In this document: in pieces, positions 1 through 58,096 of the stretch
How positions within the stretch are numbered: position 1 is the first letter of the stretch
Layout of the letters: each line of letters opens with the position of its first letter
Source of the DNA: Micromonospora okii
Lineage (GTDB): Bacteria; Actinomycetota; Actinomycetes; Mycobacteriales; Micromonosporaceae
NCBI RefSeq assembly: GCF_020884795.1
Contig: NZ_BBZF01000012.1
Coordinates: 208,280 to 272,279 of the forward strand
Direction of reading: 5' to 3'
Length of the DNA: 64,000 bases
Notes under the pieces: generated by a model
Seen by the model: only the letters and a program-made list of their open reading frames with translations
What the model was told of the DNA's origin: nothing
Databases searched by the model: none
Program-made: the position numbers and the translations under genes

Positions 1-24462
<24,462 letters not shown>

Positions 24463-24611: not shown

Positions 24612-24622
24612 CGTCCAATTTG

Positions 24623-24696: not shown

Positions 24697-24707
24697 TCGG
24701 TTCGCAC

Positions 24708-24713: not shown

Positions 24714-24773
24714 CCTCACCACCCCCGGGCGTAGCAGAGCGGCCCCCGACCGGGGGCGGTCCGGGCCGCGCAC

Positions 24774-26525: not shown

Positions 26526-26530
26526 CCGGC

Positions 26531-27490
26531 GTGGTGCACAAGCCAGCTTGGTTTCGCGATGGCGAGGTCTTCGTCTCCTACGCTCCAACCTGCGGCATCA
26601 ATAAAGACGGCGAAGAACTGTACGTTGTTGATCCCGAGACGGGACAACGGACGGACGTTATTGATGACCGCATGGCCGACGACGTAGACAGGCTCTTGGC
26701 GGGCCTCTCGCCTAGTGCCGAGGATACTCGACAATGGATTAGCCGTAGTCATGGCGAGCCCTTCACCGCTGTGCCGGTCTACTTCGACGAACGACCGCAG
26801 CGGGAGTTCGAGGCCCTACTCGAAGGTGACGAATTTGAGGGGTGGTCGAGCGCATCGCTGGGTGAGCTCACTACTAAGCGCTGGGTGAGGGCCAGCGCCG
26901 GCCATGGTAGCCCATCAGCCGACCTCCGCACGGGTGAAGTTCCATACATCAAGGTCAGTGATATTCGGGCCGGCCTTGTCAACATCAATCCGAGCAATCG
27001 TGTGTCCAGTGTCGTCGCCGAACGCTTCTGGGGCGGCCTTGACTCTGGCTTGCAAGCTTGGGACTTGATCACGCCAATTCGAACGTCTAAGAACATCGGC
27101 GAGTTTGCCGTGCTCATGCCCGGCCAAGAGCGTGTGGTCCTTACAAAGGAGATGCTTGTCCTTCGCGCTGCGGATGATGCGCCGTTCGACAACTTCTACC
27201 TTCTCTGGGCTATGACGCTGAAGGCCGTCCGCCGCCAGTGGGGCCGAGTCATCTTTATGCAGACAAACCGAGAAGATGTCGGGCCTCGCTACCGGGAAAT
27301 CAAGATTCCTATCCCGCCTACGCCTGACCTCGCGAGAGCCGCCTCCCAAGCCTTCAGAACCTACTACACCGAATCACAGAAGATCCGAGAAGCCTTCCTC
27401 ACATACTTAGCTGAGGATGATCGGCATCACGTATTTCTTTCGAGTGTCGAAGCTGTTGAGGAAGCTGCGGAAGAAGATTCCGAGGCTTAG
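26531..27490 (+). CDS. Methylase C-terminus plus specificity (TRD) subunit
   Basis: Residues about 1-60 (KPAWFRDGEVFV..., GINKDGEELYVVD) resemble the tail that normally ends HsdM-type methylases. The rest resembles one HsdS-type target-recognition domain: WSSASLGEL...GEVPYIKVSDI near the start and a helical REIKIPIPPTPD...ASQAF segment near the end. It would choose the DNA target. The frame is open back to 26417. The GTG at 26531 is preceded by GAGG (26519-26522) overlapping the upstream stop, so coupled re-initiation is possible. Alternatively, a -1 shift at the A4 run joins both ORFs into one chain (LEKEVAGVVHKP). It contains a rare TTA codon at 27407. It ends 39 bases before a large inverted repeat. 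Function is inferred from motif pattern and context. Confidence 0.75.
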   Translation: MVHKPAWFRDGEVFVSYAPTCGINKDGEELYVVDPETGQRTDVIDDRMADDVDRLLAGLSPSAEDTRQWISRSHGEPFTAVPVYFDERPQREFEALLEGDEFEGWSSASLGELTTKRWVRASAGHGSPSADLRTGEVPYIKVSDIRAGLVNINPSNRVSSVVAERFWGGLDSGLQAWDLITPIRTSKNIGEFAVLMPGQERVVLTKEMLVLRAADDAPFDNFYLLWAMTLKAVRRQWGRVIFMQTNREDVGPRYREIKIPIPPTPDLARAASQAFRTYYTESQKIREAFLTYLAEDDRHHVFLSSVEAVEEAAEEDSEA

Positions 27491-27529
27491 CCTCCTCTTG
27501 CCATCCCGCCGCCGACCCATACTTCGTGG

Positions 27530-27610
27530 AGCGGGCCAGGGCCAGGGCGACAAGGTGGACCGCCTACCGGACGAACGGCCTTGTCGCCTTGGCCCTGGCC
27601 CTGGCCCGCT
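27530..27610. repeat. Large imperfect inverted repeat downstream of the RM genes
   Basis: The left arm (27530-27555) reads AGCGGGCCAGGGCCAGGG then CGACAAGG. The right arm (27579-27610) is its reverse complement with a 6-base insertion (CCAAGG when read as the complement). The spacer is about 23 bases. Each arm contains tandem GGGCCA units. It could fold into a very stable hairpin between two converging transcription units, so it may act as a bidirectional terminator. It could also be a relic of an element end. Confidence 0.85.
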
Positions 27611-27987
27611 CGGCTTGCCTGGGGTCGGTGGCTGGCGGGCTGGCATCCCACCGCAACCACCCAGGACCGCAACCGTTCGGCAACTCCTTCCCGGAGTCGT
27701 CTGGCCCCCGCCGGAGGCAGCTCTAACCCCAACCCCGCCCCGATCCTCCGCCCCTTCTCCTACCCCCACCCCTTTCCCACACCGGACCCTGAGCGGCCCG
27801 GCGGATTCCGTTCGGCAACTCACCGACAACCGTCAATGGGCCTGCGGCGATTCGTCGCGAGCGTAGAAGAGACGGAAGGTAAAGGCTGTCGCATGGTCCC
27901 GGTCAGTCCGGAACACCGGTTCCCTTCACGGACCCAGGGTGATGCGCGGGGCGGGGCGTGGTTTGCGGGCTGGCTGACTTTCCGCCC

Positions 27988-28005
27988 GGCCGCCGGTAGG
28001 CGGCC
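27988..28005 (-). terminator. Possible terminator of the XRE-NUDIX unit
   Basis: Perfect 7-bp stem GGCCGCC/GGCGGCC with a 4-base loop, 131 bases beyond the NUDIX stop. It is GC-only with no T-run. The strand is assigned from context; it would fold equally on either strand. Confidence 0.35.
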
Positions 28006-28136
28006 AGGGCCCTGTCCGCGCCGGTCGCCAGGCGTGAGGCGTGCCACAGATTGACAGCGCGCTGCCGTCACGCGCCCCGGGCGGTGGCGTATGCGGCCCG
28101 CTCAGGGACGCCTTGATCGAGTATCCAAACTGTGCG

Positions 28137-28604
28137 CTAAACAGCGCTGCCGTGTTCGGTATACGCGGAAACGCCGCCACTCCGGGCAGCAATCGCAGTC
28201 TGGATCCTACGTACGAGCCGGGGCGGGCAGTGCTGCTGCAAGGACTCTGCCTCCACGTAGCGCCACTCGGTGAGTTCACCGTCTGCGAAGCAGATGTCTC
28301 GCTCCTGCTCGGCATCGAGGGATCCGCCGTCGAAGATGAAGAGGAGCTTGTCGCCCTCATGCTCAGCGGGTGCCCAGTCGACGACCAGCATTGGTCCGAG
28401 CGCGGGCACGAGGCCGAGTTCCTCCCGGACCTCGCGCAGGCATGCCGCACGTGGTGACTCGCCGGGCTCGACGTAGCCGCCGGGGATGTCCCAGTGTTCC
28501 TTGTAGCTCGGGTGTACGAGAAGCACGCTGCCTTCGTCGTCGAAGAAGAGGGCGCCAGCGGCGACACGTGGGGTTGCCATGGGTGGCATCTCGTTGGCCG
28601 TCAC
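28137..28604 (-). CDS. NUDIX hydrolase
   Basis: Small cytoplasmic pyrophosphohydrolase of 155 residues from GTG 28604. Residues about 40-64 carry the full Nudix box, GYVEPGE then seven residues then REVREELG, which binds the metal and hydrolyses nucleoside-diphosphate-linked substrates. Length is typical for a single-domain NUDIX protein. The substrate cannot be read from sequence. The start is uncertain: GTG 28604 has a weak ribosome site, and ATG at 28589 or 28580 would remove only 5-8 residues. It follows the XRE regulator gene by 24 bases on the same strand, so the two are probably co-transcribed. An alternative is an ADP-ribose or oxidised-nucleotide type; nothing decides between them. 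Confidence 0.92.
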   Translation of the reverse strand: MTANEMPPMATPRVAAGALFFDDEGSVLLVHPSYKEHWDIPGGYVEPGESPRAACLREVREELGLVPALGPMLVVDWAPAEHEGDKLLFIFDGGSLDAEQERDICFADGELTEWRYVEAESLQQHCPPRLVRRIQTAIAARSGGVSAYTEHGSAV

Positions 28605-28628
28605 CAGGGCAGCCTAGATGGGCTGGGT

Positions 28629-29852
28629 TCAGTCGAGCACCTTGAGCCTCCGGGCCAGGCCGATCAGTTGAGCGGAGGGTTTGCCTCGCTGTCGGCGGAT
28701 CCAGGTGAGGACGAGTTGTCGGCTGAGGAAGTGGTGGCGGACCTGCTCGGGTGCCATCTGTTCGGCGTTGAGTAGGACGGCTTGGGCGTCGTCGACGCGG
28801 TTCCACGAGCTGTAGGCGCGGGCGACTTCGAGGGCGTGTCGTACCCGGCGTTCCATCGGTAGGCCGGTGGTGTCGACGCGCGGGCCGAGGTCGATAGCGA
28901 CTTGCAGGTCTCCCAGTTCGGCGGCGGTGGCAACGCGGTGGATGGCGACGTTGGTCGGACCGAACGCCGTCCAGAGGTGGTTGGCGTCCGCGCCGAGCTG
29001 GCCGGCGGCGTGGTCTGCGGCGGCGAGAAAGGCACGGGTGGTGGCGGCGTCGTTAGATCGCGCGGCGGCCATCGAGCCGGACAGGAACAAGGTTCCGAAG
29101 ACGGAGAACAGTGCTGGTGTGGCGTGCTTGAGATGGGGCTCAAGGTAGCTGGCGGCGTCTTCGGTGAGGCGTACGGCTTCGGTGTAGCGACCGGTGGCGT
29201 GCAAGGCATGACTGACGGAGCGGAACAGGGAGCCGGTGATGAGCGGATCGCCGGTGGGCCGGACGGCGGCCAAGCCTCGGTCGGAGGCGATCCAGGCGAG
29301 GTCGTTCTCGCCGAGTTTGGTGAGCTGGGTGGCGGTGAGTTGGTACGCCAAGCCGAGCAGCCGTCGGGCTTGTTCCTGGTCGTCGCCGTCGTGGTAATCA
29401 GCGGCGGCCTGGGCCCGGTGTAGCAGGTCGGGAAGGCGAGCGATGACGTAGCCGAATCGGGAATCTTGGTAAGCGTCCCAGAGGTCGCCTACCTCTTTTC
29501 TGAGCACGGCGACGCTCGACGGCTCTGCGTTCATGCGGCCGCCGATCGGGCCGAGGGCGCGGTAGTTCATTAGGGCGGCGCGGAGCGTGGGGACGGTCTT
29601 GGTGCCGCTGTCGCCGGTCCAGTCGAGCAGTGAGGGTTCGCCGAGCAGGTTGCCGAGGGAGACGTCCAGGACTTCGGCGAGGGACTTGATGACGGAGAGT
29701 CGGTCCAGCTCGATCCGGTTGTTCTCGATCTTGCCGAGCCAGTCGGCGGTACGGCCGACGAGTCCGGCTAGGACTTCCTGGGACAGGCCGCGCCGGTAGC
29801 GATACCAGGCGACACGCTCGCCGATGGTCAGGTGGTTAGTCATCCCGTTCAC
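28629..29852 (-). CDS. XRE-family HTH regulator with helical-repeat C-terminus
   Basis: Residues about 8-70 form a Cro/C1-type helix-turn-helix (LSQEVLAGLVGRTADWLGKIE), followed by a long Ala/Leu-rich helical region resembling TPR-type repeats. This is a common actinobacterial regulator plan of about 400 residues. It probably binds DNA, and the repeats may sense a partner. The GTG start at 29852 is favoured over ATG 29843 because GAGGGGAG lies about 11 bases before it. It is the first gene of a probable two-gene unit with the NUDIX gene and is divergent from the plus-strand operon at 30220. The second XRE gene of that operon (31372) is a paralogue, with similar HTH spacing and similar GD-LxW-A-DR and TGDPL segments. 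Two inverted repeats in its upstream region could be operators. The target is unknown. Confidence 0.88.
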   Translation of the reverse strand: MNGMTNHLTIGERVAWYRYRRGLSQEVLAGLVGRTADWLGKIENNRIELDRLSVIKSLAEVLDVSLGNLLGEPSLLDWTGDSGTKTVPTLRAALMNYRALGPIGGRMNAEPSSVAVLRKEVGDLWDAYQDSRFGYVIARLPDLLHRAQAAADYHDGDDQEQARRLLGLAYQLTATQLTKLGENDLAWIASDRGLAAVRPTGDPLITGSLFRSVSHALHATGRYTEAVRLTEDAASYLEPHLKHATPALFSVFGTLFLSGSMAAARSNDAATTRAFLAAADHAAGQLGADANHLWTAFGPTNVAIHRVATAAELGDLQVAIDLGPRVDTTGLPMERRVRHALEVARAYSSWNRVDDAQAVLLNAEQMAPEQVRHHFLSRQLVLTWIRRQRGKPSAQLIGLARRLKVLD

Positions 29853-29883
29853 CGGCTTACTGTCTCCCCTCGGTCGGCTGCGA

Positions 29884-29902
29884 CCCCGGAAGGTTTTTCC
29901 GG
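29884..29902. promoter_or_regulatory. Inverted repeat in the XRE leader
   Basis: CCCGGAA-GGTTT-TTCCGGG, a perfect 7-bp palindrome 32 bases upstream of the XRE start. It could be an autoregulatory operator or a leader hairpin; the role is inferred from position. Confidence 0.35.
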
Positions 29903-29920
29903 GTCACTGAGCGGCTTGCA

Positions 29921-29939
29921 TCACAACCTGTATTCGTGA
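29921..29939. promoter_or_regulatory. Candidate operator TCACaA-N7-TcGTGA
   Basis: A 19-base imperfect palindrome (5 of 6 arm bases match) in the divergent region. The half-site spacing suits a dimeric HTH protein, so the adjacent XRE regulator is the natural candidate ligand. No further copy was noticed at the start of the 31372 gene. Confidence 0.3.
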
Positions 29940-30219
29940 CGGGACTTACCGTATCGACTAACTGCGAACTCTCCTCTGGCGGGGGCCGGAAGTACGCCCT
30001 TGCCCGCACTGCCATCCCGGGATTGGCGCAGGGCAGGAAGGACTCCTTTGCCTGGCCCGGCGGTCCTGCCTGGACTGCGCGGGCTCCGGTCGCTCGGCGC
30101 TCTGCTGAGGCTGTCCCGGGGTGGGCGCTGGTGCGGGACCGCGACCCGAACGACGGCCCGTGAATGGCCCGCCCGCCCCGCTTCCCCGCACACCTGCACC
30201 GCCCCGGCCGGGGGTGCCG

Positions 30220-30928: not shown

Positions 30929-31385
30929 CTACCCGGCGCTGCACGGCCCGTCGCGGCCGGACTGGAACTGCCTGGTCTGCGGCGAGCCGTGGCCGTGCCT
31001 GACCCGCAAGCGGCAGCTCAAGGAGCTGTGCCAGTGCAACATTCGGACCCTCGTCCGCTACATGACCTCGTACCTCCCGGACGCCCACGCGGACATCACC
31101 GGCATGAGCGCTGCCGACATCGCTGACCGGATCGTCGGCTGGTGCACCAGACCGTTGGAGATGTGGGCCACCCAGGACCCGGCGGTACGTCTTCAACCTG
31201 AAAGGCAGGCAGATATGGGCAGGACTGACAAGAGCGCGGCGCGGCTTCGCAGCGAGCAGGCCGAGGCCGCCGAGCAGGAGGCCGCCCGGCAGCGCCTGCT
31301 GGAGCTGGCGGAGGCGGAGCGGATACCGGCCGAGGAGACCACCCGGGCCGTACCCGACCGGCGGTGGCGTCGTGACTACCAATGA
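30921..31385 (+). CDS. Hypothetical protein with WNCLVCGEPWPC motif
   Basis: 154 residues from ATG 30921, overlapping the upstream stop by 8 bases and the next gene by 14. The N-terminus has a CxxC...C cluster (residues about 14-22), which could bind a metal. A middle segment LVRYMTSYLPDAHADITGMSAADIADRIVGW is likely helical. The C-terminal third is a charged Ala/Glu helix (EQAEAAEQEAARQRLLELAEAE) consistent with a coiled coil. I do not recognise a catalytic family. Its position between a DivIVA-like gene and an XRE gene suggests a shared, unknown function. Confidence 0.7.
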   Translation: MTDYPALHGPSRPDWNCLVCGEPWPCLTRKRQLKELCQCNIRTLVRYMTSYLPDAHADITGMSAADIADRIVGWCTRPLEMWATQDPAVRLQPERQADMGRTDKSAARLRSEQAEAAEQEAARQRLLELAEAERIPAEETTRAVPDRRWRRDYQ

Positions 31386-32583
31386 GCTGCCGATAGGTCG
31401 CCGAATCGCCCGGCTGCGGACCCGGCGGCGGATGACCCAGCAGATGCTGGCCGACCGGCTCGGCAAGTCGAAGAGCTGGGTCGACAAGGTCGAGCGGGGT
31501 GTCCGCGCCCTCGACCGGTACACCGTCATCCAGGACCTCGCCGAGGTGCTGCGCGTGGACCCGGTGGCGCTGCTCGGCCGCGACGCCCTACCGTCGCAGG
31601 CCGCCCGCGCCGCCGCGCACGGCGTCGACGGGGTGCGCGCCGCCCTCGACCGCTACGACACCGCCCTGACCGGGCCGCAGGTGCAGGCGGCACCGCCGGT
31701 CGGCGAGCTGGGTCGGCGGGTACGGCACGCCTGGCTGACCTACCAGCACGCCGACTACCCCCAACTGCTGCGGATGCTGCCGGGGCTGCTCGGCGACATC
31801 CAACACACCCACGCCTGCCCAGGCGGCGGGGCCGGGGACGGCGCGGCGGAGCTGCTGGTGCAGGCGTACCGGATCACGTCGTCGGTGCTGGTGAAACTCG
31901 GTGAGGGCGACCTCGGCTGGCTGGCCGCCGACCGGGCCATGTCCGCCTCCACCGGCGACCCGCTGCGGGTGGCGGCGGCCGCCGTGCCGCTGGGGCAGGC
32001 CCTGCGCGCCCTCGGCCGCCCCCGACCGGCCCTGGCCGTTACGATCGCCGCCGCGCACCGCATCGCCCCCACGGTGCGGCGCGCCGACCCGCCCCGGGAC
32101 CCGGCGCTACACGGAACGTTGCTGGTCCAGGCCGCCCTGGCCGCCGCCGGATTCGGCGACGAACGCAGCGCACGGGAACTGGTCGACCAGGCGGCCCGGA
32201 TCGCCGACGAGACCGGCGGGGATCACGACCGGCACGGGACCAGTTTCGGCCCCACAGCAGTCGAGCTGGCCCGGGTGGCCGCCGCCGTCGAGGTGGGTGC
32301 CGGCGGCGAGGCGGTGGTGCTGCACGAACGGGTCGTCGGCACGGACCACTGGCGACGGTTACCCGCCGAGCACCGGGCGGCGTACCTGCTCGACGTCACC
32401 CGCGCGTACCTCCAGGCCGGCGACCCGCTCGCGGCCGGACGCGCCCTGGTCGACGCGGACCGGACCGCACCGGCCGAGGTCCGGTTACGGCCGGTCGCCC
32501 GTACGCTGATCGCCGACCTGACGCGCCACGGGCCGGTCCCGGCGGACGTGGCCCGGCTCGCCGCGGACCTCGGGATCGGGTGA
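31372..32583 (+). CDS. XRE-family HTH regulator, second copy
   Basis: 403 residues from GTG 31372, which lies inside the end of the upstream gene (14-base overlap). Residues about 7-68 form an HTH (MTQQMLADRLGKSKSWVDKVE), followed by an Ala/Leu-rich helical region with TPR-like periodicity. It is paralogous to the minus-strand regulator at 28629-29852: both have the same length, HTH position and conserved LVKLGEGDLGW / LTKLGENDLAW and TGDPL segments. Last gene of the operon starting at 30220, and about 430 bases upstream of the next PKS gene, so it could influence the cluster, though nothing in the sequence proves this. Confidence 0.88.
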   Translation: MTTNELPIGRRIARLRTRRRMTQQMLADRLGKSKSWVDKVERGVRALDRYTVIQDLAEVLRVDPVALLGRDALPSQAARAAAHGVDGVRAALDRYDTALTGPQVQAAPPVGELGRRVRHAWLTYQHADYPQLLRMLPGLLGDIQHTHACPGGGAGDGAAELLVQAYRITSSVLVKLGEGDLGWLAADRAMSASTGDPLRVAAAAVPLGQALRALGRPRPALAVTIAAAHRIAPTVRRADPPRDPALHGTLLVQAALAAAGFGDERSARELVDQAARIADETGGDHDRHGTSFGPTAVELARVAAAVEVGAGGEAVVLHERVVGTDHWRRLPAEHRAAYLLDVTRAYLQAGDPLAAGRALVDADRTAPAEVRLRPVARTLIADLTRHGPVPADVARLAADLGIG

Positions 32584-43402: not shown

Positions 43403-46400
43403 ATGCCCACTGAGGCGGAGTTCCTCGACTACCTGCGGCGCGCCACGGCCGACCTGCGCGAGGCCCGGCGGCGCGTGCGGGAGGTGGAGGCGAAGGACCG
43501 CGAGCCGATGGCCGTCGTCGGCATGGCCTGCCGGTACCCGGGCGGGGTGCGCAACCCCGACGACCTGTGGCGGCTGGTCGCCGACGGCCGCGACGGGGTG
43601 GGCGACTTCCCGACCGACCGGGGCTGGGACCTGGAGCGGCTCTTCTCCGTCGACCCCGACGACCCGGGCACCTCGTACGCGGACAAGGGCGGCTTCCTCT
43701 ACGACGCCACCGAGTTCGACCCGGCCCTGTTCGGCATCAGCCCGCGTGAGGCCCTGGCGATGGACCCGCAGCAGCGGCTGCTGCTGGAGAGCGCGTGGGA
43801 GGCGTTCGAGTCCGCCGGGCTGGACCCGCAGCGGCAGCGCGGCAGCCGCACCGGCGTCTTCGCCGGGGTGATGTACCACGACTACGCCTCGCGGGTGCTG
43901 GACCTGCCCGAGGGCGTGGAGGGCTACCTCGGCACCGGCAACTCCGGCAGCGTCGTCTCCGGGCGCGTCGCCTACACGTACGGGCTGGAGGGGCCCGCCG
44001 TCACCATCGACACCGCCTGCTCCTCGTCGCTGGTCGCCGTGCACCTGGCCGTGCAGGCGCTGCGCCAGCGCGACTGCGACTTCGCCCTGGCCGGCGGCGT
44101 GACCGTGCTCTCCACCCCCGGCGTCTTCGCCGAGTTCTCCCGGCAGCGCGGGCTGGCCGCCGACGGGCGGTGCAAGTCGTTCGCCGCTGCCGCCGACGGC
44201 ACCGGCTGGGCCGAGGGCGTGGGCGTGCTGCTGCTCCAGCGGCTCTCCGACGCGCAGCGCGACGGCCGGCGCGTCCTCGCCGTGATCCGGGGCAGTGCCG
44301 TCAACCAGGACGGCGCGAGCAGCGGCCTGACCACCCCGAACGGCCCCAGCCAGGAGCGGGTGATCCGGCAGGCCCTGGCCAACGCCCGGATCTCCCCGGC
44401 CGACGTGGACGTGGTCGAGGCGCACGGCACGGGCACCACGCTCGGCGACCCGATCGAGGCGCAGGCGCTGCTGGCCACGTACGGGCAGGACCGCGCGGGC
44501 GGGCAGCCGCTGCGGCTCGGCTCGGTCAAGTCGAACCTCGGCCACACCCAGGCCGCCGCCGGGGCCGCCGGCATCATCAAGATGATCATGGCGATGCGGC
44601 ACGGCGTGCTGCCCCGCACCCTGCACGTCGACGCGCCGTCCCCGCACATCGACTGGGACGCGGGCGCCGTGGAGCTGCTCACCGAGCCCCACCCCTGGCC
44701 GGCGGGCGACCGGCCGCGCCGCGCCGGGGTGTCGTCGTTCGGCATCAGCGGCACCAACGCCCACGTCATCGTCGAGCAGCCCCCGGCCGAGGAGCCCGCA
44801 CCGGTCGCCCCGGTCGCCGTGCCGCCGCTGGTGGCCGTGCCGCTGGCCGCCCGTACCGCCGGGTCGCTGGCCGCGCAGGCCCGGCGCTGGGCCGACCACC
44901 TCGCCGCCGACGACTCCGCCCGCCCGGTGGACGTCGCCGCCGCCGCGCTCGACCGCGCCGACCTGGGCCAACGGGCCGTCGTGCTCGCCGCCGACCGCGC
45001 CGAACTGCTCGCCGGGCTGAACGCCCTCGCCGACGGCGAACCGCACCCCGCCGTGGTCACCGGCACCGCCGCCGCCCGGGGCCGGGTCGCCTTCCTCTTC
45101 TCCGGCCAGGGCGCGCAGCGCGCCGGCATGGGCCGCGAGCTGGCCGAGGCGTTCCCCGTCTTCGCCGCCGCCCTCGACGAGACCTGCGCCGCCCTCGACC
45201 CGCACCTGCCCCGGCCGCTGCGGGAGGTGCTCTTCGCCGAAGCCGGCACGCCCGAGGCCGAGCTGCTGCACCAGACGGTCTTCACCCAGGCCGGGCTCTT
45301 CGCCGTCGAGGTGGCCCTGTTCCGGCTCGCCCGCTCGTTCGGGCTGGTCCCCGACCTCCTCGCCGGCCACTCGATCGGCGAGCTGGCCGCCGCGCACGTC
45401 GCCGGGGTGCTCTCCCTGCCCGACGCCGCCGCGCTGGTCGCCGCCCGGGGCCGGCTCATGCAGGCCCTGCCCGCCGGCGGGGCGATGCTCGCGGTCGGCG
45501 CGGGCGAGGCGGCCGTGGCCGGGTCGCTGGCCGGCGTCGCCGGCCCCGTCGACATCGCCGCCGTCAACGGCCCCGCCGCCGTCGTCGTCTCCGGGGCCGC
45601 CGGGGCGATCGACGAGCTGGCCGCGCTCTGGGCCGACCGGGGCGCGCCGACCTCCCGGCTGCGGGTCAGCCACGCCTTCCACAGCGCGCTCATGGAGCCG
45701 ATGCTCGCCGAGTTCGCCGCCGTCGCCGAGGGGCTGACGTTCCGGCCGCCGACCGTGCCGATCGTGTCCAACCTGACCGGCCGCGTCGCCGGGCCCGAGG
45801 AGCTCTGCGACCCCGGCTACTGGGTGCGGCACGTCCGCGAGGCCGTCCGCTTCGCCGACGCCGTCGCGCACCTGGCCGAGGCGGGCGTCGGCACGTACGT
45901 CGAGCTGGGCCCCAGCGGCGTGCTCACCGCCATGGCGCAGGGCTGCCTCGCCGACCCGGCGGCCGTGCTGGTGCCGCTGTCCCGCAAGGACCGCCCCGAG
46001 CCCCGAGCCGCCCTGGAGGCCCTGGCCCGGCTGCACGCCGACGGCCTCGCCGTCGACTGGTCCGGCCTCTCCGCCGGTGCCGCGCGCCGCATCGACCTGC
46101 CCACGTACGCGTTCGACCACGAGCGGTACTGGCTGGAGCCCGTCGGCCGGATCGCCGACGTCACCGGCGCGGGCCTCGGCGCGGCCGGGCACCCGCTGCT
46201 CGGCGCGGCGGTCTCCGTGGCCGGCGAGGACATGGTGCTGCTCACCGGCCGGCTCTCCCTCGCCACCCACCCGTGGCTGGCCGACCACGCGGTCGGCGGC
46301 GTGGTCGTGCTGCCCGGCACCGCGCTGGTCGAGCTGGCCGTGCGGGCCGGCGACGAGGTCGGCGCGGCCCGGGTACGGGAGCTGACCGTCACCGCGCCGC

Positions 46401-49400
46401 TGGCCCTGCCCGCCGCCGGGGGCCTGCGGGTGCAGGTGCGCGTCGGCGCGGCCGACGAGGCGGGCACCCGCGCGGTGACCGTGCACGCCCAGCCCGAGGA
46501 CGACCCCGACGCCGGCTGGGTGCGGCACGCCGAGGGCGTCCTGGAACCCGCCGCCGCCGACGAGCCCGGCCTCGGGGCGTGGCCGCCCGCCGCCGCCGAG
46601 GTCGACCTCACCGACTGGTACGACGCCCTCGCCGCGCGCGGCCTGACCTACGGCCCCGCCTTCCGGGGCCTGCGCCGGCTCTGGGCCGGCGACGACGAGG
46701 TGTACGCCGAGGTCGCCCTGCCCGAGGACGGCGCGGACGCCGCCGCGTTCGCCGTCCACCCGGCGCTGCTCGACGCCGCCCTGCACCCGATCGGGCTGCT
46801 GGACGCCGGCACCGGCGGCGGGCCCCGCGTGCCGTTCGCGTTCGAGGGAGTGCAGGTGCACGCCGCCGGCGCGGCGGCCCTGCGGGTGCGGCTGACCCGC
46901 GCCGGCTCCGCCGTGCGACTCGTCGCCGCCGACGCCACCGGCGCGCCCGTCGTCTCCGTCGACTCCCTCGTGCTGCGGGAGCTGACCGGGGTGTCCGCCC
47001 CCGGCGTCGCCGAGCGGTCCATGTTCGCCGTCGACTGGCAGCCCGAGGCGGTCACCCCCGTCGACGACCTCTCCGGCTGGGCGCTGCTCGCCGGCCCGGA
47101 CGCGCCCCGCCTGGGCTGGCTGCCCGCGTACGCCGACGTGGCGGCCGTGCTCGACGCGGCGACCCCGCCGCGCGCCCTCGTGCTGCCCGTGGCCGCCCCG
47201 GCCGACGCCGACGTGCCGGACGCCGTCCGGGCGACCGCCTCCGCCGTGCTCGCCACCGTCCAGGCGTGGCTGGCCGCCGACGCCCTCGCCGACACCCGCC
47301 TCGTGGTGCTGACCCGGGGCGCGGTGGCGGCCGGCGACGGCGACGAGGTCACCGACCTGGCCGGCGCGGCCGGGTGGGGCCTGCTCCGCTCGGCCCGCTC
47401 CGAGCACCCGGAGCGCATCGTCCTGGCCGACCTCGACCGGGACGCGGACGCCGCCGCCCTCGCCGTGCTGGCCGGCGTCGCCGCCGACCCGGCGGCCACC
47501 GGCGGTCAGGTGGCGCTGCGCGGCGACGCGGTGCTCACCCCCCGGCTGGTCCGCGCCGCCCTCCCGCCGACCCCGGCCGGGCCGGCGCTCGCCGACGGCA
47601 CCGTGCCGGCCGGCAACGACAACGCCGCGCCGGCCCTCGGCGACGGCACCGCGCCGGTCCTCAGCGCTGTGTCGGCCCTCGGTGACGGCACCGTGCTGGT
47701 CACCGGCGGCACCGGGGCGCTCGGCGCGCTGGTCGCGGAGCACCTGGTCACCGGGCACGGGGCGCGGTCGCTGCTGCTGGTGTCCCGGCAGGGCCCCGCC
47801 GCCCCCGGCGCGGACGCCCTGGCCGAGCGGCTGACCGGCCTCGGCGCGCGGGTCGACGTCGTCGCCGCCGACGTCACCGACCGCGACCGGGTCGCCGAGC
47901 TGGTCGCCGGCGTCCCGGGCCGGCTGGCCGGCGTCGTGCACACCGCCGGCGTCCTCGACGACGGCGTGGTCACCGCCGTCACCCCGGAGCGGCTGGCGCG
48001 CGTGCTGGCCCCGAAGGCCACCGCCGGCTGGTGGCTGCACGAGGCCACCCGTGGCCTCGACCTCGACCTGTTCGTGCTCTTCTCCTCGGTCGCGGGCGTC
48101 CTCGGCTCCCCGGGGCAGGCCGCCTACGCCGCCGCGAACGCGTTCCTCGACGCGCTCGCCGCGCACCGCCGGGCGGCCGGGCTGCCGGCGGTCAGCCTGG
48201 CCTGGGGCATGTGGGACACCCCCGGCATGGCCGCCTCGGTCTCCGACGCCGACCGGGCCCGCTCCGCCCGGGGCGGCCTGGCCGCGATGAGCGCCGAAAC
48301 CGGCCTGGCGCTCTTCGACGCCGCCCTCGCCGCCGACCGTTCGGCGCTCGTGCCGGCCGTGATCGACGTGCCGGCGATGCGGGCGCAGGTCGTCGCCGGC
48401 CGGGTGCCGTCGCTGCTGCGCGCGCTGCTCGGCGGCGGCCCCGCGCGCCGCCAGGCGGGGCGGGGCGACTGGGCCGACCGGATCGCCGGGCTGGACCCGC
48501 AGGAGGCCCGCGACCAGGTCGACGCCCTCGTCCGGGGCCTCGTCGCCCAGGTCCTCGGGCACGGCGGCGTCGACGCGGTGGCCCCCGACCGGGCGTTCCG
48601 CGAGCTGGGCTTCGACTCGCTGACCGCCGTGGACCTGCGCAACCGGGTGAACGCGGCCACCGGGCTGCGGCTGCCGTCCACCCTCGTCTTCGACTACCCG
48701 ACGCCGCGCGCCCTCGCCGAGCACGTACACGCCGAGCTGGCCGGCGGCCGGGCCGTCGCCGCCACCGCCGCCGCGACGGCGACCGCCGCCGGGCTCGACG
48801 AGCCGATCGCGATCGTCGGCATGGCCTGCCGGTTCCCGGGCGGCGTCGACAACCCTGACGAGCTGTGGGAGCTGCTGGCCACGGGCGGGGACGGGATCAG
48901 CGAGTTCCCGGCCGACCGGGGCTGGGACCTGGACTCGCTGTACGACCCGGACCCGGACCACAGCGGCACCTCGTACACGCGACACGGCGGCTTCCTGCAC
49001 CGGGCCGCGGAGTTCGACCCCGCCTTCTTCGGCATCAGCCCGCGCGAGGCCCTGGCGATGGACCCACAGCAGCGGCTGCTGCTGGAGACGTCGTGGGAGG
49101 CGTTCGAGTCCGCCGGGCTGGACCCGCACCGGCTGCGGGGCAGCCGCACCGGCGTCTTCGCCGGGGTCATGTACCACGACTACGCCTCCCGCCTGCTCGA
49201 CCTGCCCGCCGAGGTGGAGGGCTACATCGGCACCGGCACCTCGGGCAGCGTGCTGTCGGGCCGGGTGGCGTACACGTTCGGCCTGGAGGGGCCGGCCGTC
49301 ACCGTGGACACGGCGTGCTCGTCGTCGCTGGTCGCCCTGCACCTGGCCGTGCAGGCGCTGCGGTCGGGGGAGTGCGAGCTGGCCCTCGCGGGCGGCGTGA

Positions 49401-52400
49401 CCGTGATGGCCACCCCGGGCACGTTCGTCGAGTTCTCCCGGCAGCGCGGCCTGTCGGCCGACGGGCGGTGCAAGTCGTTCGCCGCGTCGGCCGACGGCAC
49501 CGGCTGGGGCGAGGGCGTCGGCGTACTGCTCGTGCAGCGCCTCTCCGACGCCCGTCGGCAGGGCCGGCGCGTCCTGGCCGTGGTGCGGGGCAGCGCCGTC
49601 AACTCCGACGGCGCGTCCAACGGGCTGACCGCCCCGAACGGCCCGGCGCAGCAGCGGGCCATCCGGCAGGCCCTCGCCAACGCGCGGCTCACCCCCGCCG
49701 ACGTGGACGCCGTCGAGGCCCACGGCACCGGCACCACCCTCGGCGACCCGATCGAGGCGCAGGCGCTCCTGGCCACGTACGGGCAGGACCGGCCCGCCGA
49801 CCGGCCGCTGCTGCTCGGGTCGGTCAAGTCGAACATCGGGCACACCCAGGCCGCCGCCGGGGTCGCCGGCATCATAAAGATGGTCCTGGCCATGCGGCAC
49901 GGCCTCGTGCCGCCGACCCTGCACGTGGACGAGCCGTCCCCGCACGTCGACTGGACGGCCGGGGCGGTCACCCTGGCCACCGCGCCGACGCCCTGGCCCG
50001 ACGTGGACCGGCCCCGCCGGGCCGCCGTCTCCTCCTTCGGCATCAGCGGCACCAACGCCCACGTCGTGCTGGAGGCGGCCCCCGAGCCCACCGCCGCCGG
50101 GTTCCGGCCGGGCGTCGGCGGGCCCGTCCCGCTCGCGCTCTCCGCCGCCGACCGGGCCGCGCTGGGGGAGCAGGCCCGCCGGCTGCGCGCGCACCTCGCC
50201 GCGCACCCCGAGACCGAGCCGGCCCAGGTCGCGTACGCCCTCGCCACCACCCGGGCGACGTTCCCGCACCGGGCCGTCGTGCTCGGCCGGGACCGGGCCG
50301 AGCTGGCCCGGGGCCTCGCCGTCCTCGCCGACGGCGGGGACGCCCCCGCCGTGGTCACCGGCGCGGCCCTGCCCGACCCCGCGCCCGTCCTCGTCTTCCC
50401 CGGCACCGACGTCTTCTCCGGGGCCGACGCGCGCGCGGCCGTCGAGCTGCTCGACGCCGCCCCGGTCTTCGCCGCGTCGATCGCCGAGTGCGAGGCCGCC
50501 CTCGCTCCCTGGGTGGACTGGTCGCTGACCGACGTGCTGCGCGGCGTCGACGGCGCGCCCGATCGGGCCGACCCCGCCGTCGCGCAGCCCGCCGGCTGGG
50601 CGGTCATGCTCTCCCTGGCCCGGCTGTGGCGCTCCCTCGGCGTACGGCCGGCCGCCGTCGTCGGGCACGCCCACGGCGAGATCGCCGCCGCCTGCGTGGC
50701 CGGCGTCCTCTCCCTGGCCGACGGCGCCCGGATCGCCGCCCTGCGCGGCCGGGCGCTCGCCGCCGGCCCCGAGGCCGCGCGGGAGCGGTTCCTGGCCGAC
50801 CTCGACGGCATCACCGCCCGCCCCGCCGAGCTGCCGTTCCACTCCACCCTCGACGGCCGGCGGGCCGGCCCCGACGACCGACAGGCCGACCGGACCGGCC
50901 CCGACGATCGGCAGGCCGGCACGACCGAGTCCGACGGGCGGCCGGCCGAGGGCGTCACGCCCGACGCCGGGCACTGGTGCCGGAACCTCAGCGAGGCCGG
51001 GGACCTGGAGCGCGCCGTGGGCGGCCTGCTCGCCGACGGCCACCGGGTCTTCCTGACGGTCGGGCCGCCCGCGCCCGGCCTGCGGGAGGCCGTCGACGCC
51101 GCCGCGCGGGAGGCGGCCGTCGTGGACACCCTGCGCCCCGGCGAGGGCGGCTGGCCCCGGGTGCTCGCCGCCCTCGCCGAGCTGCACGTGCGCGGCGTCG
51201 ACGCGGACTGGGCCGCCGTGTGCGGCACGGCGACCGGGCCGGCCGTGCCGCTGCCCACGTACGCCTTCCAGCGGCAGCGGTACTGGCCCGAGGCGCCGCT
51301 GCGCGTCGGCCGGGCCGCCGCCGAGGACCCCGCCGACCGGCGGTTCTGGGACGCCGTGGAGCGCGCCGACGCCGACGCGCTGGCCGCCGCCGTGAGCGTC
51401 GACGGGACCGAGGCCGACGCGCTCGGCGCGGCGCTGCCCGTGCTGACCGGCTGGCGGCAGCGCCGCCGCGACGAGTCCACCGTGGACGGTTGGCGCTACC
51501 GGGTGCGCTGGCAGCCGCTGACCGTCCCGGCGGCCCGCCTCGGCGGCACCTGGGCGCTCGTGACGCCCGCCGGGCACGCCGACGACCCGCTGGTGGGGCA
51601 GGTCGCCCGGGCCCTCGGCGAGGCCGGGGCCGACGTGGCGACGCTGACCGTCGGCGACCCCGACCGCGCCGCGCTGGCCGCCCGCCTCGCCGACCTCGAC
51701 GCCGACCGCCTCACCGGCGTGCTCTCCCTGCTCGCCCTCGACGAGGCCGACCACCCGGACCGGCCCGTCGTGCCCGCCGGCCTCGCCGGCATCCTCGCGC
51801 TCGTGCAGGCCCTCGGCGACGCCGGGATCGCCGCGCCGCTGTGGTGCGCCACCCGGGGCGCCGTCTCCACCGGCCGCGCCGACCCCCTCGACCACCCGCG
51901 CCAGGCCCTCGCCTGGGGCCTCGGCCGGGTCGCCGCCCTGGAGCACGCCGACCGCTGGGGCGGTCTGGTCGACCTGCCGGCCACCCTGGACGGCCGGTCC
52001 GGGGGCCGGCTCGCCGCCGCCCTCGCCGCGGCCGGGCCCGAGGACCAGCTCGCCGTACGCCCCTCCGGCCTCTTCGCCCGCCGGCTCGCCCGCGCCGACG
52101 CCGACGTTTCACCGGCCGGCCCCGGCTGGCGGCCCGCCGGCACCGTCCTGATCACCGGCGGCCTCGGCGCGATCGGCGCGCACGTGGCCCGCTGGCTGGC
52201 CCGCGACGGCGCGTCCCACCTGGTGCTCACCGGCCGGCAGGGCCCCGCGACGGCGGGCGCGGCCGAGCTGGAGGCGGAGCTGACCGCCCTCGGCGCGACC
52301 GTGACCGTGGCGGCCTGCGACGTCGCCGACCCCGACTCGCTGCGCGCCCTGGCCGACGGGCTCGCCGGGCGGGGCGTGCGCGTCGAGGCGGTCTTCCACG

Positions 52401-55400
52401 CCGCCGGGGCCGCCCACGCCGCCCCGCTCGCCGGCATCGACCTGGCGCAGCTCGCCGAGGCCCTGCGCGCCAAGGTGGCGGGTGCCGTCAACCTGGACGA
52501 GACGTTCGGCGGCGACGTCTCCGCCTTCGTGCTCTTCTCCTCCGGCGCGGGCGTCTGGGGCGGCGGCCTCCAGGGCGGCTACGCCGCCGCCAACGCCTTC
52601 CTCGACGCCCTCGCCGAGGACCGGCGTCGGCGCGGCCTGCCCGCCACGTCGGTCGCGTGGGGCGCCTGGGACGGCGGCGGCATGATGGCGACCGAGGGCG
52701 CGGACCACATGTTCCGTTCCGGCGTCCGGCCGATGCGCCCCGAGCTGGCCGTCGCCGTCCTCGCCCGGGCCCTCGCCCGCGACGAGGCCGCCCTCACCGT
52801 CGCCGACGTCGCCTGGGACCGGTTCCACCAGACGTACGCGCTGGCCCGGCCCCGGCCGCTGGTCGAACAGATCCCCGAGGTGGCCCGGCTGCTGGCCGCC
52901 CGCGCCCGCGACGACGACGGGCCCGAGGCGTCCCCGCTGCGCGCCCGGCTCGCCGGGCTGGCCGAGCCGGAGCGCCGCCGCACCCTGCTGGAGCTGGTCC
53001 GGGTGCACGCCGCGGCCGTGCTCGGGCACGCCTCGGCCGAGGCGATCGACGCCGACCGGCCGTTCCGGGAGGTCGGCTTCGACTCGCTGAGCGCCGTGGA
53101 GATGCGCAACCGGCTCGGCGAGGCGGTCGGGCTGGCGCTGCCCGCCACGCTGGTCTTCGACCGGCCCACCCCGGCGCTGCTCGCCGGCTGGCTGGCCGAC
53201 CGCGTCCTCGGCGTCGCCGAGGCGGCCACCGCCCCGGCCCCGGCCGCCGCCGCCCTGGACGAGCCGATCGCCGTCGTCGCCATGAGCTGCCGCTACCCCG
53301 GCGGGGTGGCCGGCCCCGAGGACCTCTGGCGGCTGGTCGCGTCCGGCCGCGACGCCGTCGGCCCGTTCCCCGCCGACCGGGGCTGGGACCTCGACGCCAT
53401 CTACGACCCCGACCCCGACACCCCCGGCACCGCGTACGCCCGCGAGGGCGGCTTCGTCGCCGACGCCGGCGGCTTCGACGCCGGCCTGTTCGGCGTCTCG
53501 CCCCGCGAGGCGCTGGTCATGGACCCGCAGCAGCGGCTGCTACTGGAGACCGCCTGGGAGCTGTTCGAGCGGGCCGGCATCGCCCCCGCCGACGTGCGGG
53601 ACACCAGCACCGGCGTCTTCGTCGGCACCAACGGGCAGGACTACGCCACGCTGCTGATGGCCGCCGGGGCCGACACCGAGGGCTACCAGGCCACCGGCAA
53701 CGCCGCCGCCGTCGTCTCCGGCCGCCTCTCCTACGCCTTCGGCCTCCAGGGCCCCACCCTCACCGTCGACACGGCGTGCTCGTCGTCGCTGGTCGCCCTG
53801 CACCTCGCCGTGCAGGCGCTGCGGGCCGGCGAGTGCGACAGCGCCGTGGCCGGCGGCGTGACGGTGATGGCCACCCCCGGCCCGTTCCTGGAGTTCGCCC
53901 GGCAGCGCGGGCTGGCCGCCGACGGCCGGTGCAAGTCGTACGCCGCGGCGGCCGACGGCACCGGCTGGGGCGAGGGCGCCGGCCTGGTGCTGCTCCAGCG
54001 GCTCTCCGACGCCCGGCGGGAGGGCCGGCGCGTCCTCGCCGTCGTGCGCGGCAGCGCGGTCAACTCCGACGGCGCGTCCAACGGGCTCACCGCCCCCAAC
54101 GGCCCCGCCCAGCAGCGGGTCGTCCGGCAGGCCCTCGCCAACGCCCGCCTCGCGCCCGCCGACGTGGACGCCGTCGACGGCCACGGCACCGGCACCCGCC
54201 TCGGCGACCCGATCGAGGCGCAGGCGCTGCTGGCCACGTACGGGCAGGACCGGCCCGCCGACCGGCCGCTGCTGCTCGGCTCGGTCAAGTCGAACCTCGG
54301 CCACACCCAGGCCGCCGCCGGGGTCGCCGGGGTCATCAAGATGGTGATGGCGCTCCGGCACGACCTGCTGCCGCCCACCCTGCACGTCGACGAGCCCACC
54401 CCGCAGGTCGACTGGGCCGCCGGCGCCGTCGCCCTGCTCACCGAGGCCCGGCCGTGGCCCGAGCTGGACCGGCCCCGCCGGGCGGCGGTCTCCGCGTTCG
54501 GGGTGAGCGGCACCAACGCCCACCTCATCCTCGAACAGGCCCCGCCGGCCGACGCCGACGAGCCGACCGGCGGCGACGGATCGGCCGGCGACGAGCCCGC
54601 CGCGACGCCGCTGCCCTGGGTGATCTCCGGCGCGGACGCCGACGCCCTGCGCGCCCAGGCGGCCCGCCTCGCCGACTGGGCGGCCGACGCCACCACCGCC
54701 GACGCCGCCGTGGCCCGCACCCTCGCCACCGGCCGCTCCCACCTGCGGCACCGCGCCGTGCTGCTCGCCGCCGACCGGGAGGCGTACGTGGCCGGGCTGC
54801 GGGCCCTCGCCGCCGGGCAGGGCCACCCGGGCCTCACCCGGGACGTCGCCGCCCCCGGCGGCACCCTCGCCGTCCTCTTCTCCGGGCAGGGCGCCCAGCA
54901 CGCCGGCATGGGCCGCGAGCTGTACGACGCGTTCCCCGCCTTCGCCGAGGCCCTCGACGAGGTCTGCCAGCACCTCGACGCCCACCTGCCCCGGCCGCTG
55001 AAGACCGTGCTCTTCGCCCCCGACGGCACCGACGAGGCCGCGCTGCTCGACCAGACCGTGTTCACCCAGGCCGGGCTCTTCGCCGTCGAGGTGGCGCTGC
55101 ACCGGCTCCTGGCGGGCTGGGGCGTGCGCCCCGACCTGGTCGCCGGGCACTCCGTCGGCGAGATCGCCGCCGCCCACGTGGCCGGGGTGCTCACCCTGGC
55201 CGACGCCTGCACCCTCGTCGGCAACCGGGGCCGGCTCATGCAGGCCCTGCCGGCCGGCGGCGGGATGCTCGCCGTCGCCACCGGCGAGGCCGAGGCCGCC
55301 GACGCCCTCGCCCCGTACGCCGGGCGGGTCGCCGTCGCCGCCGTCAACGGCCCCGCCGCCGTGGTCGTCTCCGGTGCGGTGGACGCGCTCGACGAGCTGG

Positions 55401-58096
55401 CCGACCACTTCGCCGCCCTCGGCGTACGCACCAAGCGGCTCGCCGTCAGCCACGCCTTCCACAGCCCGCTGATGGAGCCGATGCTGGCCGAGTTCGCCGC
55501 CGTCGCCGCCACGCTCGACTACGCCCCACCGGCCGTCCCGCTGGTGTCCAACCTGACGGGCCGGGTCGCCGACCCCGAGCTGCTCCGCACCCCCGACTAC
55601 TGGGTGCGGCACGTGCGGGAGGCCGTCCGGTTCGCCGACACCGTCACCCACCTGCGCGACCTCGGCGTCGGCACCCTCCTGGAGGTCGGCCCCGACACGG
55701 TGCTCACCGCCCTGGCCGCCGACGCGCTGCCCGCCGACGGCGGCCCGCTGACCCTCGGCGTGCAGCGCCCCGGCCGGGGGGAAGCCGCCACCCTGCTCGG
55801 CGCGCTGGCCGCACTGCACTGCCACGGCGTGCGCGTCGACTGGGCCGCGCTGCTGCCCGCCGCCGACCCGGTCGACCTGCCCACGTACGCGTTCCGCCGC
55901 CAGCGGTTCTGGCCCGTCGCCGACGGCGACGTGGTCGGCGCCGCCGCGCCGGCCGCCGCCGCGCCCGGCACCGCCGACGAGGCGTTCTGGCGGGCCGTGG
56001 CCGACGGCGACGGCGACGGGCTCGCCGCCCGCTTCGGCGTCGACCCCGACCGGCCGCTGCGCGCCCAACTGCCCGCCCTCGCGCAGTGGCACCGCCGCCG
56101 GCAGGCCGACGCGCTGGCCGACGGCTGGCGCTACCGGATCACCTGGCCACAGCGGCAGCTCACCGGCGGCCCCGCCACCGGGGACTGGCTGCTGGTCGTC
56201 CCGGCCGGCGCGGCGGGGGAGACCGCCGGGCGGATCGCCGAGCTGCTCGGCGCGCACGGCGGCACCGTGCGGACCCTGCCCGTCGACCCCGCCGCCGCCA
56301 CCCGGGACGAGCTGGCCGGGCTGCTCCCCGCCGACCAGCCCACCCGGATCGTGTCGCTGCTCGCCCTGGACGAGCGCCCCCACCCCGACCACCCGCACGT
56401 GCCCGCCGGGCTCACCGGCAACCTCGCCCTGATCCAGGCCGTCACCGCCGCCGCGCCCGCCGGGCCGCTGTGGCTGCTGACCCGGCAGGCCGTCAGCACC
56501 GGCCCCGGCGACCCGGTCGCCCACCCCGCCCAGGCCACCACCTGGGGGCTCGGCCTGGTCACCGCGCTGGAGCACCCCGCGCACCGGGGCGGCCTGCTCG
56601 ACCTGCCGGCCGAACTGGACGACGCCGCCGGGGAACACCTGCTGCGGGCGCTGACCAACGACGCCGAGGACCAGCTCGCCGTCCGGCCCGCCGGGACGCA
56701 CCTGCGCCGGCTGACCCGGGCCGCCCGCGCCTCCGACGTCCCCGACTGGCGGGCCCCCGAGACGGTGCTCGTCACCGGCGGCACCGGCGCCATCGGCCGG
56801 TACGCCGCCGCCTGGCTCGCCCGGCACGGCACCCGCCGGCTGATCCTGGTCAGCCGGCGCGGCGCGGACGCCCCCGGCGTCGCCGACACCCTCGCCGAGC
56901 TGGCCGACCTCGGCGCGCACGCCACGGTCGCCGCCTGCGACCTGACCAACCGCGACGCCGTCGCGGCCCTCGCCGCCGGGCTGCGCCGCGACGGCGAGAC
57001 CGTGCGCGCCGTGGTGCACGCCGCCGGCGTCGGCCGCCTCAACCCGGTCGCCGCGGTCACCGCCGACGAACTCGCCGACGTGGTCTCCGGCAAGATCGCC
57101 GGGGCCCGTCACCTGGACGAGCTGCTCGACCCCGACGACCTGGAGCTGGTCGTCCACTTCTCCTCCATCGCCGCCGCGTGGGGCGTCGGCGACCACGGCG
57201 CGTACGCCGCCGGCAACGCCTTCCTCGACGCGCTCGCGCAGTCCCGGCCCGCCGGCCGGGCCCGGGTGGTCACGGTCAACTGGGGGCCGTGGGCCGGCGG
57301 CGGCATGGTCAGCGACGAGCACGCCGTGGCGATGAGCCGGCGCGGCGTCACGCTGCTCGACCGGGAGCCGGCGATGGCCGCGCTGCGCGCCGCGATCACC
57401 GGCGACGACGCGGTGCTCACCGTCGCCGACGTCGACTGGGCGCGCTTCGCCCCCGTCTTCGCCTCCGCCCGCCCCCGGCCGCTGATCGGCGACCTGCCCG
57501 AGGTGGCGGCCCTGCACGCCGGCACCGATACGGCGGTCGACGGCGGCGACGAGGCCCTCACCGGCCTGCGCAAGCGGCTCGCCGACCTCACCACCGCCGA
57601 GCAGACCCGGCTGCTGGTCGACCTGATCCGCACCGCCGCCGCCGAGGTGATCGGCCACGACAGCCCGTACGCCCTGGAGGCCGATCGGCCGTTCCGGGAC
57701 CTCGGCTTCGACTCGCTGACCGCCGTGGAGCTGCGCGGCCGGCTCGCCAGGGCCACCGGGCTCACCCCGGCCAGCTCCGTGGTCTTCGACTACCCGACCC
57801 CGCAGGCCCTCGCCGAGCACCTGCGCGCCGGGCTGGTCAGCGAGGCGTCGGTGGAGGCGCTGCCCACCGTCGAGGAGCTCGACCGGCTGGAGGAGGCGCT
57901 CGCCCGGCGCGAGGCCGACGACATCGGCCGGGTGCGGATCACCATGCGGCTGCACCGGCTGCTGGAGCACCTCGGCGCCGCCGAGCGGGGCGACGGCGGG
58001 CGGCCCGACGCCGCCGCCGACGTGGCCGACCGGCTGCGCGGCGCCAGCAACCAGGAGCTTTTCGATCTTTTGGACTCAGACCTCGGGCTTTCCTGA
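43403..58096 (+). CDS. Type I modular PKS, modules H-J
   Basis: 4897-residue three-module synthase. ATG 43403 has GGAG seven bases upstream and gives a typical docking helix ([18 protein letters not shown]). Order: KS 34-455, AT 560-855, DH 926-1195, KR 1425-1605, ACP 1700-1780; KS 1799-2222, degenerate AT 2326-2590, KR about 2912-3100, ACP 3186-3262; KS 3286-3710, AT 3823-4120, KR about 4453-4635, ACP 4730-4806; C-terminal docking region 4813-4897. The middle AT has lost the oxyanion-hole Gln, the catalytic Ser and the whole segment with the substrate motif, so module I cannot load its own extender as written. The gene is 42 bases after PKS gene 2 and 37 before PKS gene 4, so the three are probably one transcript. 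Confidence 0.98.
43502..48796 (+). other. PKS module H: KS-AT(malonyl)-DH-KR(B)-ACP
   Basis: KS Cys codon 44018. AT Ser codon 45371 (GHSIGE) with HAFH, malonyl. DH about 46180-46990 with HxxxGxxxxP and [12 protein letters not shown] about 47680-48220 with GGTGALG, LDD and Tyr codon 48125. ACP about 48500-48740. All domains look active; predicted outcome is a trans double bond. The linker before the KR has an extra ALxDGT-type repeat (47585-47692). Confidence 0.93.
48797..53257 (+). other. PKS module I: KS-AT(inactive)-KR(A)-ACP
   Basis: The KS is intact (Cys codon 49316, HGTGT, NIGHTQ). The AT region, about 50380-51170, is decayed: the FSGQGAQ motif reads FPGTDVF, GHSxGE reads GHAHGE (Ser to Ala, codon 50669), and roughly 80 residues including the YASH/HAFH motif are absent, so [20 protein letters not shown] runs straight into PAELPFHST. 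The final EVSAHP-type motif reads TVGPPAP. The KR is complete and A-type (GGLGAIG, no LDD, Trp present, Tyr codon 52580). ACP about 52960-53190. Extender supply must come from elsewhere, or the module is passive. Confidence 0.9.
50867..50956 (+). repeat. 30-base tandem repeat inside the decayed AT
   Basis: Three 10-codon units ([20 protein letters not shown] and a diverged [10 protein letters not shown]) lie just after the FHST remnant of the inactive AT of module I. No equivalent occurs in the other ATs. Confidence 0.8.
53258..57840 (+). other. PKS module J: KS-AT(malonyl)-KR(A)-ACP
   Basis: KS Cys codon 53777; HGTGT is preceded by VDG rather than VEA. AT Ser codon 55151 (GHSVGE) with HAFH, malonyl. 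A dimerisation element ([10 protein letters not shown]) precedes the KR, which has GGTGAIG, no LDD, Trp in AAAWGVGD and Tyr codon 57203, hence A-type. ACP about 57590-57820. Predicted outcome: a hydroxyl. Confidence 0.93.

Follow-up and report, generated by a model that had tools for sequence, protein, structure and literature searches.

The quinolidomicin synthase of Micromonospora chalcea AK-AN57 was reportedly described by Hashimoto in 2018, as cited in PMC8698034 and PMC9967187. This synthase (QmnA1-A13) resembles the PKS line studied here in module order and make-up, and its seventh gene encodes modules 20-22 (PMC8698034). By domain order and motifs, our line matches the quinolidomicin cluster of Table 3 in that paper, from which we take the module numbers, minus module 4, which the reference has and which is also missing as printed for TP-A0316 and TP-A0468. 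The make-up expected for modules 20-22 (KS/ATm/DH/KR/ACP, KS/ATmm/KR/ACP and KS/ATm/KR/ACP, together in one gene of a line with about 33 modules) places our gene with QmnA7, as judged against the table rather than against the M. chalcea sequence, and the exceptions are the missing module 4 and the acyltransferase (AT) of module 21: where the reference lists ATmm, our line has a remnant. The absence of AT21 in one strain is already in print as a table entry, given that Table 3 shows module 21 of M. okii TP-A0468, probably the strain analyzed here, as KS/KR/ACP, without discussion in the parts of the paper covered. The draft genome of that strain likewise comprises 36 contigs, and its genes break off at the gaps of our assembly. 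What is new is its recurrence, as 13 of the 26 orthologue-bearing genomes among 160 of the genus have an eroded AT21. Our literature search found no description of repeated AT erosion, in graded states, within a single module across related genomes, a result that is weak as evidence of absence because most subscription journals lie outside the search.

Trans-AT PKSs such as that for bacillaene (PMC11907408) likewise have modules in which KS and ACP are not accompanied by a functional AT. Unlike those systems, in which ATs are missing from modules throughout, our line has 31 other cis-AT modules (31 of 32 keep an AT) and still contains the core of AT21, and no dedicated stand-alone AT was found encoded with the line or elsewhere in the genome. 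Dead cis ATs compensated by FabD-type loading in trans are known from engineered modules: MCAT restores an AT-null DEBS module 6, giving a 2-desmethyl product (PMC6164871), FabD rescues CalA module 1 carrying a Ser-to-Ala AT (PMC10204065), and rescue of AT-dead cis-AT modules by added MCAT or FabD is also reported in PMC11411704. Whereas those cases were engineered, the loss of AT21 is natural and recurrent, and its rescue is what we infer. Individual modules of natural cis-AT lines are also already known to have an AT that is dead, missing or suspect, as in irumamycin M12, haliamide modules 2 and 5, pyoluteorin module 2 (AT*) and aureothin. As far as the covered literature goes, these are single cases, whereas AT21 occurs in full-length and graded eroded states among close relatives. 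To our knowledge, the origin of AT-less modules from cis-AT modules has been argued mostly from distant comparisons. The presence of intact, half-eroded and dead copies of AT21 in close relatives makes this change directly testable, through product structure and the enzyme that loads the carrier. The series also offers a natural guide to tolerated AT loss that is useful for engineering, and in 13 of the 26 clusters, AT motifs cannot be used to predict the extender of module 21.

A dead acyltransferase in module 21

The window, by which we mean the whole stretch of 64,000 nucleotides analyzed, occupies C12:208280-272279 in a 6.44-Mb genome of 36 contigs (G000). On the same contig, the 32 KS domains of the PKS line span approximately C12:127.8k to 322k. 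The gene that contains module 21 is open throughout (Table 1).

Table 1. Positions in the window of the features discussed in the text
Feature	Position	Strand	Make-up, basis or location
QmnA7-type PKS gene, 4897 aa	43403..58096	+	modules 20 KS-AT-DH-KR-ACP, 21 KS-[AT]-KR-ACP, 22 KS-AT-KR-ACP
AT20, malonyl-type by motif (HAFH), candidate neighbour loader	45086..46039	+	domain and motif search
KS21, C-H-H intact, entrance motif VMYH	48800..50074	+	domain and motif search
AT21 remnant: FPGTDVF, Ser to Ala, His-containing deletion, insertion	50396..51253	+	profile match, orthologue alignment
GHAHGE instead of GHSQGE	50663..50680	+	residue positions
KR21, catalytic Ser-Tyr-Asn and NADPH motif intact, W-containing	52139..52684	+	domain and motif search
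ACP21, GFDSL intact	52985..53188	+	domain and motif search
KS22, TNGQ (beta-hydroxy acceptor) motif	53261..54535	+	domain and motif search
AT22, malonyl-type by motif (HAFH), candidate neighbour loader	54866..55822	+	domain and motif search
N6-adenine DNA methylase frame	24774-26525		low-GC island
Overlapping frame without Pfam match	26417-27490		low-GC island
HTH_31 protein	28629-29852	-	low-GC island
Second HTH_31 protein	31372-32583		after low-GC island

AT21 is dead in the window protein: both catalytic residues, Ser and His, are gone, together with 77 of 336 alignment positions. Each lesion named in the original prediction was found. FPGTDVF stands in place of FSGQGAQ (50396-50416), and GHAHGE brings Ala to the position of the catalytic Ser. 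The stretch of about 80 residues with the YASH/HAFH motif that was said to be absent corresponds to the 77 columns missing relative to full-length orthologues, the His column being a gap, and the last conserved motif is eroded, with the window sequence deviating from FLEVGPHPVLSFGM of the full-length copies. In addition, 30 residues are inserted relative to those orthologues. The deleted stretch presumably lies within the small, ferredoxin-like subdomain. A working cis-AT module has a complete AT domain with the catalytic Ser in GHSxG and the catalytic His in YASH or HAFH; module 21 has neither residue and an incomplete domain.

What remains is recognizable as an AT. The Pfam profile Acyl_transf_1, aligned almost end to end with the majority of the line's other ATs, matches AT21 in two stretches, the best of which covers profile positions 15-120 of 319. 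In a phmmer search of the PDB, the AT21 query aligned significantly with its best chain only over residues 1-134 and 192-317. An AlphaFold model of the remnant (pLDDT 79, pTM 0.79) is best in the first half of the domain, with confidence across residues 31-160 (block means 82-98), and its top Foldseek matches are KS-AT and AT structures. There is no assembly gap near the lesion, the closest runs of N lying about 50 kb upstream and about 20 kb downstream. All 31 remaining modules, one of which has an AT broken by an assembly gap, carry the GHSxGE and HAFH/xASH motifs, and 30 of them have the GQG-type first motif, which is unmatched in module 1.

The rest of module 21 keeps its active residues and an intact frame, in line with the prediction: the KS reads DTACSS, EAHGTGT and KSNIGH, and the KR and ACP signatures are complete. 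We take KR21, given its W, to be A-type-like. Among 385 KS+ACP modules in 100 non-orthologous proteins, none had a short or absent AT, defined as no AT match or as coverage of fewer than 270 of 318 model positions; these control proteins had been retrieved with an AT-containing query rather than at random, and 20 of the 120 retrieved (the query and its orthologues) were excluded. The lesion in AT21 is thus not a matter of chance, and the survey supports the prediction that AT-less behaviour is uncommon within a cis-AT line, for which the natural cases named above are precedents.

Recurrence, losses and selection among relatives

We screened 160 genomes of the genus with a 690-residue region as query and found orthologues (E <= 1e-120) in 26, the window genome included. 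AT21 is eroded in 13 of them and full length in the other 13. With an additional protein, P0014, that is also eroded, the prediction of a module retained but for its dead AT is borne out beyond the window. All 13 full-length copies measure exactly 336 residues from the first motif to PTYAF, retain Ser, His, Arg and Asn, and carry GHSQGE and YASHSP. These motifs read as methylmalonyl-type by the rule in PMC11672594, and ATmm is what Table 3 of PMC8698034 lists for module 21. Eroded copies lack 63 to 86 columns, and among the 13, Ser is lost in 10 and His in 12. They form a graded series in which the middle of the domain is deleted with Ser and His retained (L037 and P0014), Ser is retained with His lost (L021 and L039), or both are lost (the remaining 10, window included). 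The frame is open over 4887-4970 codons in 12 of the 13 eroded genomes, and in the thirteenth (L044) it is cut by the contig start. AT20 and AT22 are full length in all fetched orthologues that cover them.

The full-length copies have a peculiarity of their own: in 12 of 13 (range L025-L036), the first Gln of GQGxQ is His. This His occurs in none of the 385 other modules, of which 365 have Gln, and Gln is retained in the full-length L038 and P0030 (the latter from the protein set) and in the eroded L037. The change is possibly an early sign of loss; omega of the full-length copies, most of which carry it, gives no hint of relaxation.

We next estimated the number of losses from trees that exclude the AT. 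The first tree, built from P0014 and the 26 genomes (27 rows), requires four changes between full-length and eroded states, three of which are forced by high-support branches. Since KS21 seems to exchange with KS14-16, the analysis was repeated with KS21 omitted, on 41 rows (27 full length and 14 eroded, with three duplicate proteins dropped and P0026 not included), which again gave four changes, three of them forced. A single clade of all eroded rows was rejected with both trees (p-AU 4e-6 for the first and 2e-140 for that without KS21). One ancient loss followed by regain through recombination would be an alternative history; against it, deletion breakpoints vary between lineages, which favours separate losses. 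At least three losses are thus forced by strong branches, and the trees indicate that AT21 was most likely lost four separate times.

KS21 itself clusters with KS14-16 of its own line, in a tree with 24 of 26 KS21 and 24 of 26 KS20 rows. Its synonymous divergence in the eroded clade is 3-4 times that of its neighbours, as repeated KS exchange predicts. We considered this divergence as a signature of AT loss and rejected it, the grouping with KS14-16 making exchange the likelier source.

Selection was compared between nine of the 13 eroded genomes (G000, L037, L039 and L041, as separate or deep lineages, were excluded) and the 13 full-length genomes. The AT21 remnant has an omega of 0.65 (bootstrap 0.49-0.87) in the nine relatives, compared with 0.29 (0.23-0.36) for full-length AT21, these intervals being too narrow since the underlying pairwise Nei-Gojobori counts are non-independent. 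Over the 230 columns common to both groups, the values are 0.65 and 0.21. Resampled differences in omega exceeded zero in 2000 of 2000 cases. Within the same nine genomes, omega is 0.08 for KS21, 0.20 for KR21 and 0.12 for ACP21. For AT22 it is 0.31 (0.22-0.43, likewise too narrow) against 0.36 in the full-length genomes, for AT20 0.15 against 0.37, and for KS20 0.06 against 0.18. Relaxed selection is therefore confined to the AT21 remnant in the nine genomes tested. The claim that this was not simple pseudogene decay holds for the module, in which neither stops nor frameshifts nor a gene-wide loss of constraint was found and in which KS, KR and ACP are constrained; it does not hold for the remnant itself, whose relaxed constraint suggests decay of the AT alongside retention of the rest of the module. 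Given that omega of the remnant is still below 1, a structural role is possible; it is 0.13 in the 25 codons around GHAHGE.

A low omega of KR21 would seem to prove that the domain is used, and we rejected it as such proof with the help of module 17. The KR of that module (23230-23682) lacks its catalytic Tyr and Asn in every one of the 26 orthologous lines, so that a keto group is expected there throughout. The omega of this dead KR17 (0.199) is about that of KR21 (0.201).

Probable elongation by module 21 and its possible loaders

A non-elongating KS (KS0) is one that has lost a catalytic His. This is not the case for KS21, as HGTGT and KSNxGH are present in 13 of 13 eroded genomes, in which the KS C-H-H residues, the KR catalytic residues and the ACP Ser are all retained. 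The acceptor motifs of the KSs carry a further signal, VMYH having been associated with enoyl acceptors and TNGQ with beta-hydroxy acceptors (PMC11321453). KS21, which follows the DH-bearing module 20, has VMYH in 25 of 25 readable genomes (the full-length L027 being unreadable), and KS22 has TNGQ in 26 of 26, including all 13 with an eroded AT21. As a control, we classified 295 KSs of 100 other proteins (with 23 KSs after modules of neither class) by our own regular expressions, the DH class including ER-containing modules. TNGQ-like motifs occurred in 57 of 210 KSs after KR-only modules and in one of 62 after DH modules, and VMYH-like motifs in four of 210 and 21 of 62, respectively. Within the line, exact TNGQ is found in seven of 17 KSs after DH-less modules and in none of 14 after DH modules; the rule is imperfect, as TxGQ occurs at two of these 14 (modules 2 and 29). 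Were module 21 skipped, KS22 would meet the enoyl chain from module 20. These motifs lend moderate support to the view that module 21 continues to elongate, with the reservation that conservation of the KS22 motif may be inertia.

In the search for a loader, 48 AT matches were found genome-wide, all but one of them in frames of at least 1182 aa. The exception is a FabD-like protein encoded on contig 23. Its best NCBIfam model is fabD, at 165.9 bits against a cut-off of 260.9. The suggested check for a free-standing acyltransferase thus yielded this protein on another contig and, among the 48 matches, no dedicated trans-AT. The barnesin NRPS-PKS, which is AT-less, reportedly makes use of FabD (PMC13096860). 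We place FabD first among the loaders, ahead of the neighbouring ATs, with modest confidence; by analogy with the engineered and natural cases, FabD as loader and malonyl as unit are suggested more weakly than is continued elongation.

Our main reading, to which we give a probability of roughly 0.4, is that AT21 eroded by losing Ser, His and the middle of the domain while the neighbouring KS, KR and ACP were retained, and that the module is charged in trans with malonyl. Housekeeping FabD would be the predicted source of the malonyl unit on ACP21, module 21 would add and reduce a two-carbon unit, and the methyl branch from the ancestral methylmalonyl-type AT would vanish, while the surviving AT21 core would probably act as a structural spacer. 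The methyl loss is not certain, because E. coli FabD also accepts methylmalonyl-CoA (PMC11411704). A further point against the main reading is that our search for products or expression data from eroded strains found none. Extended to the genus, the proposal becomes a repeated and graded conversion of one module from cis-AT to trans-AT in at least three, most likely four lineages, through differing in-frame deletions of the AT middle and then loss of Ser and His, with FabD and malonyl stripping one methyl from a giant macrolide; this wider picture we offer as tentative. The original prediction left open whether the module is loaded in trans or only relays the chain. Trans loading fits better, and relay fits less well, because KS22 keeps its beta-hydroxy-acceptor motif, an indirect argument.

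Loading in trans could also come from within the polypeptide, with the malonyl-type AT20 or AT22 instead of FabD charging ACP21 and elongation continuing. Both ATs have intact HAFH-type motifs and are full length wherever orthologues cover them, and there is precedent in aureothin, in which AT3 serves a second carrier, and in pyoluteorin, for which AT1 has been considered (PMC11411704). The tighter constraint on AT20 in eroded genomes would agree with an added task, had KS20 not tightened likewise and AT22 stayed nearly unchanged. Nor did ACP21 clearly converge on ACP22 (mean identity 0.566 in eroded and 0.558 in full-length genomes) or on ACP20 (0.589 and 0.616), and thus shows no hint of having adapted to a different AT. 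Neighbour loading is the main rival to FabD, although we regard it as unlikely. Slightly less likely again is a module 21 that is skipped, the chain passing unaltered from ACP20 through KS21 and ACP21 to KS22, or a module 20 that acts twice. Reuse of the preceding module is what the authors propose for the Ser-less AT of irumamycin M12 (PMC11672594), the loaders named here for module 21 are putative, and the KR17 control deprives KR constraint of its force as proof of use. However, TNGQ persists in KS22 of all 13 eroded genomes although an enoyl chain from module 20 would arrive there, and the same 13 retain the KS21 histidines and KR21 catalytic residues, whereas the dead KR17 has lost its own in all 26 lines.

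The relaxed constraint on the remnant would also be seen if the cluster were silent or being lost in eroded strains, with the AT the first to go. The long open frames in 12 of 13 eroded genomes and the constraint on KS, KR, ACP and the neighbouring ATs over nine species make this improbable. Residual acyltransferase activity in some strains is the least probable of the alternatives, and very improbable at that: it could draw on the Ser kept in L021, L037, L039 and P0014, on the His kept in L037 and P0014, and on the confidently predicted core of the window remnant, but the window protein has neither residue and lacks a large part of the domain, and the nine-species clade has a high omega.

We also examined the residue three positions after the KR Tyr (Gly or Ala) as a possible marker of a methylmalonyl-to-malonyl switch. 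Across 352 modules, the 144 of malonyl type had Ala in 115 cases and the 129 of methylmalonyl type in 81. Among W-containing KRs of DH-less modules, the type to which KR21 belongs, the 42 from malonyl-type modules had Gly in 22 cases and the 82 from methylmalonyl-type modules in 35; the position does not discriminate among KR21-type KRs and was rejected.

Further observations on the line

Table 3 of PMC8698034 prints module 19 of M. chalcea AK-AN57 as KS/DH/KR/ACP and gives ATmm for two other strains, which may be a second case of AT loss or an annotation artefact. Between the QmnA5- and QmnA6-like genes, window positions 24463-30000 form a low-GC island (0.61-0.67, compared with 0.73-0.81 in most of the window), whose frames are listed in Table 1.
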